A stretch of 5,406 nucleotides of DNA from Deltaproteobacteria bacterium RBG_13_61_14 (GTDB lineage: Bacteria > RBG-13-61-14). Location of the stretch: contig MGQK01000097.1 of the NCBI GenBank assembly GCA_001797815.1, forward strand, positions 4,683 to 10,088, written 5' to 3'. A program made the position numbers and the translations under genes. Under the pieces are notes generated by a model. The model was given only the letters and a program-made list of their open reading frames with translations, was not told the DNA's origin and made no database searches. Shown here piece by piece: positions 1 through 5,406 of this stretch. Numbering within the stretch: position 1 is the first letter of the stretch; each line of letters begins with the position of its first letter.

Positions 1-629
1 ATGAGCTTTCGAGCCAGCGCATAGTCGGTCAGGAATACAGGGCACACTTCGACAGTGATTTCCTGCAGTCCGTGGCTCCTGAACAGGCGATGTAGTGTGC
101 GTCCTGAGAACGGGTTGTTCATCATCTTTTCGGTGTGAAACCGGACTAGCCGTCGCTCAAGCTCGGGTTCATCGCTGTCTATTGTGAAAGTGGCCCAGTC
201 GCCATCGAGCACAACAACCCAGCCGCTGGGGCGGGTCACGCGAACCATTTCTGCAAACGCCCGATCGGGGTCTCGCATGTGCTGGAGCATCCGTTCACTG
301 CGACTTGCGTCGAAGAAGTCAGCCGGCCATGGCAAAGCAGTGGCATCGGCTTGGCGGTGTACTACGCGGGAACTGACGCCTGCAGCTTGTGCACGCTCAT
401 TGGCCTGCGCCACCATCTGGGCATCGTAGTCAGCGCCGTAGACCTCGCCGGCTGGGCCGACGAGGTTGCTGATTGCCAAGGTGTCTGAGCCCGGACCACA
501 TCCGACGTCCAACACTCTATGGCCTGGCTCCAAGTGCATCAACTCATAGCTCCGCCGCTTGCTCGGCGCCATCAACCGTGTCGAGGTGTCAAGGTAGTCA
601 GCATCAACATATCCTTTTGGTTGCGACAC
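1..629 (-). CDS. Class I SAM-dependent methyltransferase, 3' end outside window
   Basis: The frame is open from GTG at 629 to the window edge, giving 209 residues without the C-terminus. The start is supported by AAGGGA at 638-643, 8 nt upstream. Glycine-rich motif I DVGCGPGSDT is at residues 41-50, the acidic GADYD that would bind the SAM ribose at 65-69, QADATALPW at 93-101, FDASRSERMLQH at 106-117 and the RVTRPSGWVVVLDGD strand/turn at 130-144. The whole resembles the UbiE/Methyltransf_11 group, whose members are commonly around 270 residues, so perhaps 60 are missing. The acceptor substrate cannot be read from the sequence; small-molecule or quinone-type acceptors are possible. It is soluble, with no signal peptide or membrane segment. 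It is the first gene of its cassette, beginning 83 bp after core site 706-712. No convincing promoter was found in that gap, so transcription may come from upstream cassettes. Confidence 0.9.
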   Translation of the reverse strand, partial: MSQPKGYVDADYLDTSTRLMAPSKRRSYELMHLEPGHRVLDVGCGPGSDTLAISNLVGPAGEVYGADYDAQMVAQANERAQAAGVSSRVVHRQADATALPWPADFFDASRSERMLQHMRDPDRAFAEMVRVTRPSGWVVVLDGDWATFTIDSDEPELERRLVRFHTEKMMNNPFSGRTLHRLFRSHGLQEITVEVCPVFLTDYALARKL

Positions 630-705
630 GAGATCGTTCCCTTCTTGTGTGTGGAGTGACTTACCCGTTGTGTGGAACCAGTATGTTGAAGTTCAAGATC
701 GAGCC

Positions 706-937
706 GCCCAACGGCCTCGAGCTACGAAGTCCCATGCTCTTTATGGGAAGCTGCCCGGCGGAAGCAGGCAGACCAAGAAAGTTTCTCTGCCCGGCCGGCG
801 GGCCAGACAAGCCGCCCCGAAGGCACCGCCCGCCGGGTCAGCCGAAGGTCCTGGTGCCTTCACCGCACCTCCCGGGAGATCACCGGGACGATGTGCGGTG
901 CGGCGCAGGTGTCCAGGGCTTCAGCGAGTTGTTGGGC
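706..937 (-). other. attC-like recombination site of the membrane-protein cassette, unusually long
   Basis: On the minus strand it starts with R'' GCCCAAC (937-931), continues with AACTCGCTGAAGCC, which resembles the R''-spacer-L'' side of known attC sites, and ends with R' GTTGGGC (712-706). The core sites extend to a perfect 12-bp inverted repeat, GAGCCGCCCAAC at 701-712 and its complement at 931-942. Just inside R', GGGACTTCG can pair with CTGAAGCCC while leaving one unpaired T, like the extrahelical base of L''. The total length is 232 bp, well above the usual roughly 57-141 bp. The interior holds the 106-bp shared repeat (832-937), a hairpin with 9-bp arms at 795-803 and 828-836, and a small CCCAT/ATGGG hairpin nearer R'. 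It could instead be a short attC followed by an ORF-less insert. This 232-bp stretch and the flanking gap from 630 to 975 hold no credible gene. Confidence 0.65.
832..937 (-). repeat. 106-bp direct repeat, copy 1 (attC-type hairpin element)
   Basis: It matches 3811-3916 at 101 of 106 positions in the same orientation, and the last 76 bases (862-937) are identical. All five differences lie between 842 and 860. On the minus strand it folds as a nested hairpin: GAAGCCCTGG against CCAGGACCTTC, then a perfect 8-bp CACCGCAC/GTGCGGTG stem, then CCCGG/CCGGG around a short loop. The end at 931-937 is core site GCCCAAC. This is probably the left half and stem of one attC family reused by two cassettes. 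Confidence 0.85.
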
Positions 938-975
938 GGCTCTGATTTGCCAAGACGCCTTTCCAGACTCTGATT

Positions 976-1560
976 TCATGCCCATCCGTAGGGTGTTACG
1001 CTCTTGTAAGCTCGCCAAGTGAAGACAGCGATGGCGGCGATCAACGCTGCCGTCAGCCACAGCGGGAAGGGCGCCCAAACCTGCACTCCCAACATGGCGC
1101 TGGTCAGAACGACGAACAGGCAAGTGGAAGCCATACGCTTGCGCCGCAGGCGCAGTGCGCCAATGCGGGGCGCGAAGTCCGCTGGCAATGAATTACCCGC
1201 CTGGGCAAACAGTGCGTCAATCTGCGGCTGTAGGCTCAAGTGGACAAAGGACAGCAGCGCGGCAATGAACACCAGCAGCAGGAACTTTAACCCCAACGCG
1301 GGATTGGTGAGCAGTGTGCCCAACCCCTGGCCGCGTAGGAACATCAAGGCCAGACCACTGACCAGGGCAGTGGCTTGGAACACGAAGCAGGGAATCGTGC
1401 GGTTCTTGATGATATTCTCCAGGTAGGTGTCGGCACGGTCACCCAGGGGCGGCCCCAAGCGTACTCGCTGATTGACGATGACGAGGGCGTAGAAAGGCCA
1501 CGCCATCAGAATGGCGTTGACGATATGAATGACCTTGAGAATGCTGAGAAGGGTGTCCAT
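976..1560 (-). CDS. Five-helix integral membrane protein, possibly DUF2269/CopD-like
   Basis: This 194-residue protein starts at ATG 1560, with a strong AAAGGAG at 1569-1575 placed 8 nt upstream. Hydrophobic segments lie at about residues 5-29, 57-76, 89-110, 145-161 and 164-182. A basic loop RLRRKRM at 137-143 precedes the fourth and should be cytoplasmic. The first helix carries LKVIHIVNA with a histidine (residue 12), which recalls the LHI motif in helix 1 of DUF2269 and CopD-type membrane proteins. That similarity is from memory and is weak evidence. No enzyme motif or signal peptidase site is seen. Its function is unknown. It is the only gene of its cassette; the stop is 38 bp before R''. 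Upstream, TTGACC at 1613-1618 could be a -35 element, but the nearest -10-like hexamer (GATAGC) is about 20 bp away, so an own promoter is doubtful. Confidence 0.88.
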   Translation of the reverse strand: MDTLLSILKVIHIVNAILMAWPFYALVIVNQRVRLGPPLGDRADTYLENIIKNRTIPCFVFQATALVSGLALMFLRGQGLGTLLTNPALGLKFLLLVFIAALLSFVHLSLQPQIDALFAQAGNSLPADFAPRIGALRLRRKRMASTCLFVVLTSAMLGVQVWAPFPLWLTAALIAAIAVFTWRAYKSVTPYGWA

Positions 1561-1629
1561 CGTTCTCTCTCCTTTGGCCTTGTTCAGCTATCGCGCTTGA
1601 AGCAGCCGCGGAGGTCAAGATCATGAGCC

Positions 1630-1756
1630 GCCCAACGGTGGACTTCACCCCCGCGGCGGTGAACCAAAGACACCTTCGCGGGGAAGACTCACCGGGACTA
1701 CCTGAAACTTCGCCAGGGCGAGGCGGTAGCCACGTCGGCTGCAAGCCGTGTTGGGC
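1630..1756 (-). other. attC-like recombination site of the sulfurtransferase-SDR cassette
   Basis: On the minus strand R'' GCCCAAC (1756-1750) is followed by ACGGCTTGCAGCCGAC, very like the R''-L'' side of environmental cassette attC sites, and R' GTTGGGC (1636-1630) closes the element. GGTGAAGTCC just before R' can pair with the L'' side GGCTTGCAGCC and leaves an extra G unpaired in CTTGCA, the asymmetry expected of attC. At 127 bp it is of ordinary length for a chromosomal attC. R' is followed by GGCTC, giving the 12-mer GAGCCGCCCAAC at 1625-1636 on the plus strand, shared with the other two internal junctions. No ORF of note lies inside, and the SDR stop codon is 33 bp upstream of R''. Confidence 0.75.
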
Positions 1757-1789
1757 CGCCTTTGAATGAACCAGAGTGCCTTCTTTAGC

Positions 1790-2647
1790 TCACTTGCCTT
1801 CATCGGTTTTAGTTTTTAGAGTGCGAGAACTCCAGACATAGAGTTCATCTTGTTCAATTTCATCTATTCGACGAATCAATTCTGGCAAATCATCCTTGGG
1901 TCCAACCCACCGGCCAGTCAATACATCGGCTTTGCCGGAAGCGAGAAACGTGACGAGTGGGCCTGCCAACTCTAGCGGTTGCCAGCTCTGTTCTGCCCAA
2001 CCCCGTAATTCGGGAAACCACTTGCGTCCGTCGGCTGAGTCGAGGAGATGGGTCATCATCTCCGTGGGGGTGGGGCCAGTTGAGATGGCGAATACGCTGA
2101 TACCATAGTCTTTGGTTTCGCTTGCCAGAAGATGCGTGAAGCGCGTGATTGCCACTTTGGAACAGTCATAACCCGTGAGATAAGGCATGGCGGCACTTGT
2201 GAAATTGATGATCCTGCCCTTTCGGCGCGGCACCATGCGTTGCAACACGGCACGCGAGCATAGAAACGCGCCACGCAAATTCACTTCCACATCGCGCCAC
2301 CATTCGTTTGGGTCTACTTCCCAGACCGGGCCAATGGCCGTCAGGCGCCCAGCGTTGTTCACTAACAAACCGACTGAGCCTAATTGCTGTTCCACTTGGT
2401 CCACCGTCTGCTGTACGGCGGACTGGTCGCTAACATCTACGGTTATCGCAATGGCATGACCGCCATCGTTTTCAATCAGGGATACCGTTTCTGAGAGTTG
2501 GTTGTAAGACCGGGCCACTACCGCAACCGTAGCGCCAGCCTGTGCTAGTGTGCGTGCAATTTCGCGCCCGAAACCCCGGCCACCGCCGGTAACGATGGCA
2601 ACCTGACCAGCCAATTCTTGCGATTTCACTGTGGGATCAGCCTGCAT
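1790..2647 (-). CDS. Short-chain dehydrogenase/reductase (SDR), NAD(P)-dependent
   Basis: This 285-residue Rossmann-fold oxidoreductase carries the nucleotide-binding TGGGRGFG at residues 20-27, DVSD at 71-74, NNAG at 97-100, Asn123 in VNLRG, and the active-site Y160-x3-K164 (YDCSK). Ser151 is the likely catalytic serine, but it is only 9 residues before the tyrosine, where about 13 is usual, so the intervening loop is short. TGPTPTEM (190-197) replaces the usual PG-x-V/I-x-T segment. Arg46 after the second strand hints at NADP(H), but this is uncertain. The substrate is unknown. A longer reading from ATG 2695 would overlap the upstream gene by 10 bases. ATG 2647 is preferred because it has GGGAGG 7 nt upstream and places the fold at the usual distance from the N-terminus. 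It is the second gene of a two-gene operon and may act on a product linked to the sulfurtransferase, but nothing shows this directly. Confidence 0.93.
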   Translation of the reverse strand: MQADPTVKSQELAGQVAIVTGGGRGFGREIARTLAQAGATVAVVARSYNQLSETVSLIENDGGHAIAITVDVSDQSAVQQTVDQVEQQLGSVGLLVNNAGRLTAIGPVWEVDPNEWWRDVEVNLRGAFLCSRAVLQRMVPRRKGRIINFTSAAMPYLTGYDCSKVAITRFTHLLASETKDYGISVFAISTGPTPTEMMTHLLDSADGRKWFPELRGWAEQSWQPLELAGPLVTFLASGKADVLTGRWVGPKDDLPELIRRIDEIEQDELYVWSSRTLKTKTDEGK

Positions 2648-2654
2648 GGGTTTT

Positions 2655-2660
2655 CCTCCC
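2655..2660 (-). promoter_or_regulatory. Ribosome binding site that decides the SDR start
   Basis: GGGAGG on the minus strand, inside GAGGGAGG, lies 7 nt before ATG 2647. The alternative ATG at 2695 sits within the last codons of the sulfurtransferase gene and has no comparable purine run at the right distance. The site therefore favours the shorter protein and a 38-bp intergenic gap. Confidence 0.75.
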
Positions 2661-2685
2661 TCGAGATAGGGTTGCGTGAGCGGCC

Positions 2686-3540
2686 CTAGCTCCATTTCTC
2701 AATGGGCGTATCTGCTAAGTTCCCCCACTCCGCCCAGGAACGGTCATACTCGCGCACATTAGGGTAGCCAAGCAGTTGCGTTAGCGCAAACCACATATGC
2801 GTGGACAGTCCGCCGCGTACGCAGTAGGTCACAATATTCTTGTCAGGCGTGATACCTTTTTCGGAGAACAGTGCCCGCAACTCCTCAACTGACTTGAACG
2901 TGCCATCGGTTCGTGTTGTGGGAGTTTGCCAGCCTTGAAATTGCCCATCGGCATCCGTAATAGGAGCCGCTGGGACATTGACTGCGGTGGGAATACGCCC
3001 GCCGCGTTGCATGCCTGCGGTGTTTTCACCCGTATACATATCTACCGGGCGAGCATCCACTATCATCTGCTGCATCTGCCCGATTACGCTAATAATGTGG
3101 TCTTTGTCGGCGCGGAGATCCCAATTCGGCTCTTGAGCAACATACTGCTTACGCTGTACCCTAGGCTTCTCGACACTCAGTGAACGGCCTTCTGCCAACC
3201 ACTTCTGCCGTCCGCCATCGAGCAGGCGTATGTCTGCGTGTCCATATACCTTGAGCATCCAGAACGCCATAACGGCAATCAAGTTGCTCAGTCCGCCATA
3301 AATGACAACTGTGTCGCTGTTAGCGATACCCGCATTCGACAACATGGCTTCGACTTGTGCTTTGTCGGCGAGGTGCTGGAAATCGGATAGACCCCAACCT
3401 GCGACTGCACCGGGAATATGTCCCGATTCGTACTCGGACGTATTCACGCCGACTTCCAGAAAACGGACATTCGAGTCATTCAGATGGTCGGCAACCCATT
3501 GGGTGCCTACAAGAACTTCAGGACGAGCGTAAGTGGACAT
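2686..3540 (-). CDS. Tandem-domain rhodanese-type sulfurtransferase (thiosulfate/3-mercaptopyruvate)
   Basis: This 284-residue protein has the usual length for a two-domain sulfurtransferase moving sulfane sulfur from thiosulfate or 3-mercaptopyruvate to a thiophilic acceptor. The N-terminal domain (about 8-125) contains RFLEV, ESGHIPGAVAG (38-48) and RLLDGGRQKW (105-114) but no catalytic cysteine: the equivalent loop reads YGGLSN (81-86). The C-terminal domain (about 150-280) contains VDARPVDMYTGE, RIPTAVNVP and the active-site loop from Cys240 (YCVRGGLST, 239-247), then LLGYPNVREYDRSWAEWGN (256-274). The loop has the length seen in SseA-like proteins but not the textbook CRKGVT or CGSGVT, so donor preference is open. 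It is cytoplasmic, with no signal peptide. A TTG at 3558 would add six residues, but ATG 3540 has AAAGGAG 6 nt upstream and is preferred. It is the first gene of the operon; a promoter candidate lies at 3686-3714. Confidence 0.94.
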   Translation of the reverse strand: MSTYARPEVLVGTQWVADHLNDSNVRFLEVGVNTSEYESGHIPGAVAGWGLSDFQHLADKAQVEAMLSNAGIANSDTVVIYGGLSNLIAVMAFWMLKVYGHADIRLLDGGRQKWLAEGRSLSVEKPRVQRKQYVAQEPNWDLRADKDHIISVIGQMQQMIVDARPVDMYTGENTAGMQRGGRIPTAVNVPAAPITDADGQFQGWQTPTTRTDGTFKSVEELRALFSEKGITPDKNIVTYCVRGGLSTHMWFALTQLLGYPNVREYDRSWAEWGNLADTPIEKWS

Positions 3541-3685
3541 GATATTCTCCTTTCGCAAACTGAAGGATGGCTATTGAATGTGCGACAGTGAGCCGCCCAA
3601 CTAGTGATTGGACAGCGCCCTGGCGGTGTAGTAGGCGGGGAAAGTGGAGGGGAGCTGTGGGGAGACGGCTGCCTCAAGTCGCTCT

Positions 3686-3714
3686 AGTCTAGCTCAGGGC
3701 GAGCTCAAGGGCAA
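3686..3714 (-). promoter_or_regulatory. Candidate sigma70-type promoter for the sulfurtransferase-SDR operon
   Basis: The minus strand reads TTGCCC (3714-3709), a 17-bp spacer, then TAGACT (3691-3686). Each hexamer keeps the most conserved bases of the vegetative consensus. Transcription would start near 3679 and give a leader of about 140 nt to ATG 3540, crossing core site 3595-3601. The promoter therefore sits in the tail of the preceding cassette rather than in the operon's own cassette. Confidence 0.55.
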
Positions 3715-3774
3715 GCTGTAATTGCTGGTTTGCGTACGCTGTTGCGGGCAACGACCCACCCATTCTCGCGCATT

Positions 3775-3811
3775 CTGGCGGGCAAGAGACTACTGACTCT
3801 CCGCCCGCCAG
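3775..3811 (-). repeat. GC-rich hairpin with perfect 9-bp stem
   Basis: CTGGCGGGC (3775-3783) and GCCCGCCAG (3803-3811) form a perfect stem, and AGAG/CTCT can extend it inside. The corresponding tail near 800 carries CCGGCGGGC (795-803) and GCCCGCCGG (828-836), where one pair has changed on both sides. No run of T follows on either strand, so it is a poor match to an intrinsic terminator. Confidence 0.7.
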
Positions 3812-3916
3812 CCGGGTCAGTCGAAGGCCCTGGGGCTCTCACCGCACCTCCCGGGAGATCACCGGGACGATGTGCGGTGCGGCGCAGGTGTCCAGGGCTT
3901 CAGCGAGTTGTTGGGC
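3811..3916 (-). repeat. 106-bp direct repeat, copy 2 (attC-type hairpin element)
   Basis: Same element as 832-937; bases 3841-3916 are identical to 862-937. In this copy the outer stem is better matched: GAAGCCCTGG faces CCAGGGCCTTC with one bulged G. The inner CACCGCAC/GTGCGGTG stem is perfect. It begins at the R'' core site and follows the higA gene, whereas copy 1 follows the unrelated membrane-protein gene. Confidence 0.85.
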
Positions 3917-3927
3917 TGCGGGTCACC

Positions 3928-4248
3928 TCAGCGCGAGGAAGGAGCCGTGTGCCGATGTGGCCGAATGCCCGTGAGAACGCTGGCCTCCGTCCGCCGCGCA
4001 CGATACAGATCCCAGCGCAGCTGGAGATTCATCCAGTAGCCCTCGGTGGTGCCGAAGTACTTCGCCAACCTCAAGGCTGTCGCAGGCGTGATCCCCCGCC
4101 GCGCGTTCACGATCTCATTGACGCGCTGGTACGGCATGTGGAGAGCGCCTGCCAGTTCTCGCTGGCTGACCTCCATCGGCTTGAGGAACTCCTCAAGCAG
4201 CATCTCACCCGGATGGGTGGGCTCTCTGTGTGTGGGAACACGCACCAT
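3928..4248 (-). CDS. higA: HigA-family antitoxin, HTH_3 DNA-binding protein
   Basis: This 106-residue protein starts with the family signature HPGEMLLEEFLKPMEVSQRELA (residues 12-33) and continues as an XRE/HTH_3 helix-turn-helix (about 25-60), with PYQRVNEIVNARRGITPATA as the recognition helix and following turn. FGTTEGYWMNLQLRWDLYRA (65-84) is also typical of HigA. It would bind and neutralise HigB and repress the operon promoter. The ATG at 4248 has GGGGAGG at 4254-4260, 5 nt upstream. The gap from the toxin gene is 24 bp, in toxin-first order as in other higBA operons. About 20 extra C-terminal residues (GIRPHRHTAPSSR end) run almost to the attC R'' site, 11 bp past the stop, and may have been acquired at the cassette junction. 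Confidence 0.94.
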   Translation of the reverse strand: MVRVPTHREPTHPGEMLLEEFLKPMEVSQRELAGALHMPYQRVNEIVNARRGITPATALRLAKYFGTTEGYWMNLQLRWDLYRARRTEASVLTGIRPHRHTAPSSR

Positions 4249-4272
4249 GTGTACCTCCCCTATCCTCGCACC

Positions 4273-4572
4273 CTACGACTTGTGATAGTCGACGATCTCG
4301 ACCTCTTCAGGCCCTTGCGGTGTCCAGACGAAACAGATCCGATACTGTTCGTTGATACGGATGCTGTGTTGGCCTGTCCGATGTCCGCGCAGGGGCTCAA
4401 GTCGATTGCCCGGCGGGACTCCAAGATCCTTCAGCTCCTGAGCCGAGTCGATCTGATCGAGCTTCCTTCGGGCGACTGCCCGGAGCCGCTGCGGACACAG
4501 TTTTCGCGCGGCAGCCGAATTCACACCGTTGAAGACGTCTTCGGTGGCCTGGTTGTGGAAGCTCTCGATCAC
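4273..4572 (-). CDS. higB: HigB-family toxin (RelE-like ribosome-dependent mRNA endonuclease)
   Basis: This 99-residue protein carries the HigB signature along its length: PPGNRLEPLRGHRTGQHSIR (53-72), INEQYRICFVW (73-83) and VEIVDYHKS at the C-terminus. The basic and aromatic residues that act in RelE/HigB mRNA cleavage are present (Arg65, Arg72, Arg78, Tyr96-His97). The N-terminal MIESFHNQATEDVFNGV is shared with this group. The length is typical and nothing suggests inactivation. The start is GTG at 4572. It has no Shine-Dalgarno sequence; the -10 element ends just 6 bp before it, so the message is probably leaderless. Toxin-antitoxin pairs are common in chromosomal cassette arrays, where they are thought to discourage loss of the array. 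HigA downstream is its partner. Confidence 0.94.
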   Translation of the reverse strand: MIESFHNQATEDVFNGVNSAAARKLCPQRLRAVARRKLDQIDSAQELKDLGVPPGNRLEPLRGHRTGQHSIRINEQYRICFVWTPQGPEEVEIVDYHKS

Positions 4573-4578
4573 GGCTAC

Positions 4579-4607
4579 ATGATAACACGGCTACCATGCT
4601 ATGGCAA
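4579..4607 (-). promoter_or_regulatory. Promoter of higBA, likely giving a leaderless mRNA
   Basis: The minus strand has TTGCCA (4607-4602), a spacer of exactly 17 bp, and TATCAT (4584-4579). Six bases separate the -10 from the GTG start of higB, so a usual start point falls on the G of GTG. TAGCATGGTAGCC in the spacer holds the half-repeats TAGCAT and GGTAGC, which might be part of a HigA operator; this last point is weak. Confidence 0.7.
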
Positions 4608-4633
4608 GCCCAAGCAAACGAGCACCACCCGCT

Positions 4634-4640
4634 GCCCAAC
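4634..4640 (-). other. Outermost core site (GTTGGGC), 5' edge of the cassette array
   Basis: GTTGGGC on the minus strand opens the higBA cassette and continues as GTTGGGCAGCGG, complementary at 11 of 12 positions to the sequence CCGCAGCCCAAC that ends the same gene module (3910-3921). Upstream no matching R'' and no paired L boxes are apparent. The nearest RYYYAAC is ATCCAAC at 4895-4901, inside a coding remnant. This could be an attI fragment, a decayed attC, or a secondary insertion site. Confidence 0.5.
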
Positions 4641-4648
4641 TGGTGATT

Positions 4649-4963
4649 CTACGCACTTTGACCAACGGCGGCACCCAGCAGCCGAGCTAGCTCCTCAGAA
4701 TGCGCCGGGTCAGGCACGTACAGCCCCTTCCTCACTAGCGAAGAATACCGCCGCGAGAATCCCGTGGCCTCTGCAGTCACCATGATTGACAGGCGCTTCA
4801 GGCGTGGCAAGATCTCCCGGTCAACACGGTCCTTCTCCGACGCAAGATCCAAATCCTGCTTCTCCCACTCCGCCCGTTCGGCCCCTGGGCGGGTGTTGGA
4901 TACTCCCCGATTCCTTGCCGCTCTCAGGCCAAGTCCGCGGCGCGTCCCTGCCAGCCTTGCACG
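4649..4963 (-). pseudogene. Remnant of a hypothetical protein with helix-turn-helix-like C-terminus
   Basis: The frame is open from just after a TAG at 4964-4966 to TAG at 4649-4651, 104 codons, but has no ATG or GTG near its beginning. The first usable start is TTG at 4852, giving 67 residues with no clear ribosome site. From memory, RNRGVSNTRPGAERAEWEKQ followed by REILPRLKRLSIMVTAEATGF and SRRYSSLVRKGLYVPDPAHS resembles the C-terminal half of a family of bacterial hypothetical proteins that has an ATGLS-x-RY-x3-IRRG-x-x-VPHPRHW pattern. Here HPRHW has become DPAHS. Similarity extends upstream of the TTG, so the gene looks truncated or interrupted at its 5' end. Its natural stop is retained 8 bp before the core site at 4634-4640. 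The family assignment is uncertain and its function is unknown. Confidence 0.5.
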
Positions 4964-4983: not shown

Positions 4984-5059
4984 ACCGGAACGGCCTGCCA
5001 TTCACATGACCGAGGCCGGTGACGCTTTTCTCGGACTCTAACAGCGACTCCCCTCCAGG

Positions 5060-5088
5060 TTGACATCACGCCTCCGCCCCTCTATACT
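5060..5088 (+). promoter_or_regulatory. Near-consensus sigma70 promoter, likely leaderless
   Basis: TTGACA (5060-5065) is a perfect -35, the spacer is 17 bp and TATACT (5083-5088) differs from TATAAT by one base. The ATG at 5096 begins 7 bp after the -10, so the expected transcription start is at or next to the A of ATG. No Shine-Dalgarno sequence could fit in such a message. Confidence 0.82.
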
Positions 5089-5095
5089 GCGCCGG

Positions 5096-5406
5096 ATGGA
5101 CGTCCAGGCGATCCTGGTCATCGCCGCGATCTTGATCGGCGTCTGCGTGTTGACGCTGCGCTCGGAGCCGCGCCGGCGCCGCACCATCCTGCTTCTGGTC
5201 CCCCTTCCGGCAGCCGCACTTCTGCTGCGCTGGGCGGCCTACCGTCGCGCCTGGCCGGAACTGGCCGCCGCCGCCGGGCTGGCCGCCGCCGGCGTCCTGT
5301 TGTGGTGGCTCGTCCTCGGCCGCCGCCTGCCGCCGGCCAGCAACAGCCCCGTTCGCGTGTGGAACAACAAGGAGGAGCGTTACGAACCTCCGGACGATCC
5401 TGCTCG
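5096..5406 (+). CDS. Small GC-rich membrane protein of unknown function, 3' end outside window
   Basis: The ATG at 5096 opens a frame that stays open for 103 codons to the window end. Three hydrophobic stretches are visible at about residues 4-21, 31-46 and 56-75, separated by the basic segments RSEPRRRR (22-29) and YRRAWPE (49-55). They are followed by a polar tail with VRVWNNKEERYEPPDD (86-101), predicted to be cytoplasmic. I do not recognise the family. Codon third positions are almost all G or C, with runs of GCC, unlike the sulfurtransferase and SDR genes, which fits host backbone DNA next to acquired cassettes. The start is supported by the strong promoter 7 bp upstream rather than by a ribosome binding site. 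It diverges from the minus-strand array. Confidence 0.7.
   Translation, partial: MDVQAILVIAAILIGVCVLTLRSEPRRRRTILLLVPLPAAALLLRWAAYRRAWPELAAAAGLAAAGVLLWWLVLGRRLPPASNSPVRVWNNKEERYEPPDDPA

Follow-up and report, generated by a model that had tools for sequence, protein, structure and literature searches.

The window analysed here (5,406 nt; positions 4683-10088 of the 13,961-bp contig C97, or L004) carries part of an integron cassette array for which no integron integrase was found. With considerable confidence, this array is read as a CALIN, that is, chromosomal integron cassettes that lost, or were parted from, their integrase. By definition, a CALIN has two or more attC sites and lacks an integrase (PMC9024848). 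The array is assigned to this class because it combines a cluster of attC sites with the lack of an integron integrase: at least two sites are close and co-oriented, two of them are full-length according to a covariance model, and no integrase is near, within the limits of 95% genome completeness and of the left contig end. The initial annotation, which had proposed a CALIN or a degraded integron, is supported by this attC cluster and its cassette-like genes. Its probable origin is a chromosomal integron that was degraded or displaced.

Array layout and cassette genes

The source MAG comprises 4.74 Mb in 132 contigs with N gaps (95% complete, 0.5% contaminated). Six N runs of 23-484 bases are present on L004, including L004 727-1210, and one lies directly beyond either window end. 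Window positions are L004 positions minus 4682. Seven attC-like sites (a to g) were found within 7.2 kb of the contig, all on the minus strand and delimiting at least eight cassettes. All genes between the sites are encoded on the minus strand, in line with the single gene direction that the initial annotation had noticed. The first reading had described four modules at 1-4640. The array itself and its right boundary (core at 4633-4639) hold, but four is an undercount and the left end was merely the window edge, past which the array runs leftward for ~4.3 kb and gains four sites.

Along the direction of transcription, the cassettes hold HigB-HigA, a rhodanese plus a short-chain dehydrogenase/reductase (SDR), a 194-aa membrane protein, a methyltransferase, an alpha/beta hydrolase, a SnoaL-like protein, a MazF-like toxin with a small ORF upstream, and a last cassette. 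The latter has no visible attC and is cut by the left flank; its gene could not be read through because of an N run. Within the window, the HigB-like toxin of the RelE superfamily (4273-4572, minus strand; PF05015, E 7.5e-15) and the HigA antitoxin (3928-4248, minus strand; TIGR02607, 106.7 bits at a cut-off of 47.7) bear out the toxin-antitoxin (TA) pair noticed among the cargo. The two-domain rhodanese, a mercaptopyruvate-type sulfurtransferase (2686-3558, minus strand, ATG at 3540; PF00581, E 2.4e-26), has NF008557 as its top family, with a score under the cut-off of that family, and shares its cassette with the SDR as second gene (1790-2695, minus strand; PF00106, E 1.5e-50). The 194-aa hydrophobic protein (976-1560, minus strand) was assigned to no family, and no plasmid homologues of it were found. 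The class I SAM-dependent methyltransferase (1-629, minus strand; PF08241, E 4.9e-22) has its C-terminus outside the window; the full ORF (L004 4529-5311) encodes 260 aa and contains a short N run. A MazF/PemK toxin module (PF02452) is located outside the window at L004 1386-2182, and the 99-aa ORF upstream of the toxin is probably its antitoxin, making another TA cassette. The array carries two TA modules, which are commonly reported cassette cargo (PMC8618304). A HigA homologue with 64% identity to the protein in the window is encoded at L076 390-686 in the unrelated genome G027; its contig bears intI and an attC site lies ~0.8 kb away, which suggests that HigA travels with integrons.

The compactness of the cassettes is typical. 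Across the array, 12-68 nt separate a stop codon from R'' and ~25-77 nt separate R' from a start codon; the gene ends described as close to R'' are indeed 39, 34 and 12 nt ahead of it at sites d, e and f. Each cassette would be composed of one or two genes and an attC site. The attC bottom strand is expected to fold into a hairpin at which IntI recombines at G/TT of GTTRRRY, as is established for the family, and such recombination would have joined unrelated genes head-to-tail in one direction. An integron integrase presumably built the array. By now the array would be static unless an integrase comes in trans, and its cargo may be expressed from internal promoters, e.g. those of the TA cassettes.

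The attC sites

The exact GCCCAAC/GTTGGGC cores reported for the three junctions in the window were recovered, each pair with 7/7 complementary bases. All three sites are on the minus strand. Site d (706-937, 232 nt) has R'' at 937-931 and R' at 712-706, site e (1630-1756, 127 nt; L004 6438-6312) has R'' at 1756-1750 and R' at 1636-1630, and the unusually long attC-like site f (3595-3916, 322 nt) has R'' at 3916-3910 and R' at 3601-3595. Left of the window, also on the minus strand, attC-like sites with R''/R' cores occupy L004 4487-4305, 3372-3221 (site b) and 2682-2513, and the degenerate site g lies at L004 ~1506-1386. R'' and R' are complementary at 7/7 positions in a as well as in d, e and f, at 6/7 in b and at 5/7 in c. 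Site lengths are 121-322 nt across the array and 152-322 nt for a-d and f.

Hairpins between the genes, another element of the initial annotation, had mixed support. Bottom-strand DNA folding gave z-scores of -3.0 for both d and e, with all 7 R pairs formed in d, and of -2.2 for b, but the fold of f was weak, as were those of a, c and g. By hand inspection, the unpaired hairpin bases of d are on the arm opposite to that of the training sites described below. The sites are of at least two types. Sites d and f are 94% identical over 115 nt on the R'' side and have unrelated R' sides, and a-d have a common R' side. An Rfam scan of the whole window returned sub-threshold chance matches only.

Comparison with chance

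To train a covariance model (CM) of attC, 11 sites were taken from the plasmid integron of Gemmatirosa kalamazoonensis and two from class 1 integrons; they are 60-130 nt long, and none comes from this MAG. Training had first been tried on contigs from three intI-positive genomes, which yielded too few sites, so that the Gemmatirosa integron was used instead, together with class 1 plasmids. As a control, the CM recovered extra Gemmatirosa sites outside the training set and one site each in two unrelated intI-positive genomes. On C97, its top two matches were g (24.7 bits, E 9.7e-5) and e (24.6 bits, E 1.1e-4), both on the minus strand, and the maximum in 14 Chloroflexota control contigs was 12.1 bits. 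Among the three junctions for which a covariance-model search had been proposed, this CM recovered 1630-1756, but 706-937 and 3595-3916 reached ~6-8 bits through partial matches; these two sites score low in the full CM because of their very long loops. Sites a, b, c, d and f all scored ~10 bits or less, mostly as partial alignments, and exceed the training lengths.

Since these five sites are longer than the training set, the R'' half (20 nt) was scored by itself, using a matrix for which independent sites of this kind were again the source. Six half-sites on C97 scored 18.1-19.7 bits, all on the minus strand, with 19.7 bits for both d and f. Among 534,438 control positions, one scored at least 17 and five scored at least 15. 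A two-sided matrix scan without loop penalty was dropped as unspecific (controls up to 23.9), whereas the R'' half by itself separates sites from controls. The consensus of HS286, a published attC PCR primer, fits L004 3350-3372 in site b with 2 mismatches, at 0 matches expected. From the sites, a 21-base R'' signature was derived. Its six exact copies all lie on the minus strand of C97, and it has no match with fewer than 3 mismatches in the rest of the 4.7 Mb; the count is circular for the six copies but not for the absence elsewhere. The genome-wide attC search was incomplete, with 150 of 4,394 candidates scored and even the two C97 sites going unreported. The attC-like sites of the array are real beyond chance, with full-length CM support at e and g.

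These results bear on the proposal that the genes merely form a common co-directional cluster, in which palindromic (REP-like) repeats are dispersed instead of attC sites. Several sites do have long similar blocks in common (115 nt at 94%), as such repeats would. The similarity is, however, confined to the intergenic sites and the 21-base signature is absent from the rest of the genome, and the R''/R' consensus, the HS286 match and the independent CM matches all argue for attC. Moreover, at 14 rhodanese homologue loci in other genomes (38-44% identity), neither an SDR nor any other cassette gene was found within ~1.5 kb; the conserved operon-like neighbourhood which the initial annotation had named as the opposing case was not seen. 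We consider REP-like repeats very improbable.

Search for the integrase and attI

A genome-wide profile search with TIGR02249 in this 95% complete MAG gave a best match of 80.4 bits, far from the cut-off of 265, and this match is Xer-like. Among 60 comparison genomes, three scored 448-472 bits. A tblastn search with two genuine IntI sequences against the 13.96-kb contig C97 gave no match. The tyrosine recombinases on contigs C15, C88 and C61 were considered as cryptic IntI and rejected, as all score far below the TIGR02249 cut-off.

The outer boundary of the array is a lone terminal R' core, GTTGGGC, at 4633-4639 on the minus strand. It may be an attI remnant, a truncated attC or a secondary insertion site. 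No convincing second core of an attI was found at this place; the candidate R'' at 4895-4901 gives a poor 268-nt pair with 5/7 bases. To the right of this core follow, in order, a 67-aa ORF, a small membrane protein gene and genes for a HAD phosphatase, a CoA-transferase, an S41 peptidase and a Zn-peptidase. The 67-aa ORF (4649-4852, minus strand) ends 9 nt from the core, has no family match and appears to be the C-terminal part left over from a longer protein. In a complete integron, intI would be divergent from the first cassette and accompanied by attI. Here, the 67-aa ORF and the membrane protein gene (5096-5404, plus strand), which is not an integrase, occupy this place, as the initial annotation had noticed for the latter gene. 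Because no IntI was found and the right flank could be read through into other genes, the attI end of the array is in view and carries no intI.

Alternatively, the assembly may have cut a complete sedentary integron, whose integrase would then lie past the left contig end or in the 5% of the genome that the MAG lacks. CALINs are overestimated in draft genomes (PMC9024848), this MAG is in 132 contigs with N gaps, and the contig begins exactly at a repeat. On the other hand, it is the attI-proximal right end which lies inside the contig and runs into the HAD, CoA-transferase and S41 peptidase genes without intI, and no IntI above the family cut-off was found elsewhere in the genome. An assembly cut is considered improbable.

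Flanking regions and origin of the array

Direct repeats of the small membrane protein gene, together with the sequence upstream of it, lie on both sides of the array. The right copy is at 4999-5347 on the plus strand (L004 9681-10029). The left copy, at L004 1-343 beyond the window, is truncated, and the contig ends there. Identity of the copies is 91-92%, with 304/332 identical positions (92%) in the main block at L004 12-343, and the genome holds two copies only. The repeat could have arisen when the array was displaced by duplication or recombination, or it may be an old tandem gene copy.

In sequence comparisons, the flanking genes resembled those of Chloroflexota. The S41 peptidase is closest to Chloroflexota/Anaerolineae MAGs (up to 61%), and HAD, CoA-transferase and S41 peptidase are found in the same order in the Chloroflexota contig L041, without intI. 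The flanking membrane protein gene has no clear homologue in the Chloroflexota contigs compared. Two same-order genomes were searched and showed no rhodanese match at E 1e-40 and no attC match; comparison with an empty site was impossible there because the HAD flank gene is absent from both. The GC content of the cassettes is 53-62% versus 68% in the right flank.

According to published work, CALINs can arise by three routes: off-target insertion, loss of intI, or rearrangement (PMC8618304). A rearrangement that removed the intI end is slightly favoured here, since the last cassette is truncated and the flanking gene is duplicated on both sides. Alternatively, an integrase from a plasmid or passing element may have inserted the cassettes off-target at a secondary site of the chromosome, in which case there would never have been any intI at this locus. 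The right boundary, a lone R' core without recognisable attI, is compatible with this route, and attC sites of at least two types would also fit. Seven or more cassettes at one place are, however, many for repeated off-target events, and the R'-side type common to a-d is as in a resident integron. Off-target insertion is regarded as a rather unlikely origin of the CALIN.

Comparison with known integrons

The array is a good but ordinary example of the well-known orphan arrays. CALINs are common, with 2,961 in one survey and almost 6 attC sites each on average (PMC9024848). The array shares with them the close attC sites, the co-oriented cassettes and the lack of IntI, and its seven sites are near the reported mean. 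It differs in attC sites of up to 322 nt and in the direct repeat of a flanking gene around it; the long attC sites and the 92% identical repeat of the membrane protein gene are its odd features. As a speculative and improbable interpretation, the array may represent an integron type specific to its phylum-level lineage, with unusually long attC sites (150-320 nt). It would have moved as a block between direct repeats of the flanking gene and been mobilised in trans by an integrase; attC tools that are tuned to short sites would fail to link this enzyme to the array. Long attC sites seem prone to being under-called, as a model trained on short sites was convincing at full length for two of the seven only.

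The Gemmatirosa kalamazoonensis plasmid integron likewise has serial cassettes with attC sites, and the R''-side motif TCG-T/C-TG-A/C-AGC is present in both. In contrast, it encodes an integrase and its 20 attC sites are nearly uniform, almost all being 94-99 nt long, whereas here no integrase was found and the sites vary from 121 to 322 nt. This plasmid integron (L054 13610-24628) is complete with at least 20 attC sites, and its PLSDB record is unannotated. With the attC sites (59-base elements) of class 1 integrons, the array shares the core GTTRRRY/RYYYAAC and, with the 2 mismatches in site b, the HS286 consensus. The class 1 sites compared are 56-72 nt long and lie behind resistance genes on mobile elements; no such cargo is present here.

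Integrons have been reported in Chloroflexi/Chloroflexota (PMC2426708, PMC9668308). The present analysis adds a well-delimited CALIN with its cargo listed, and another contig of the MAG adds a second; their lineage, near Chloroflexota, is poorly sampled. This second cluster, on the 5,411-bp contig C50 (L074), has three attC sites at 591-668, 1148-1244 and 1704-1781, with 45.1, 26.7 and 22.9 bits. Its genes are MazE-like and HicB-like (UPF0150, under its cut-off). It adjoins IS21-type istA/istB genes and a transposase fragment, IS family names being taken from reading the ORFs, and is thus an IS-invaded attC cluster.
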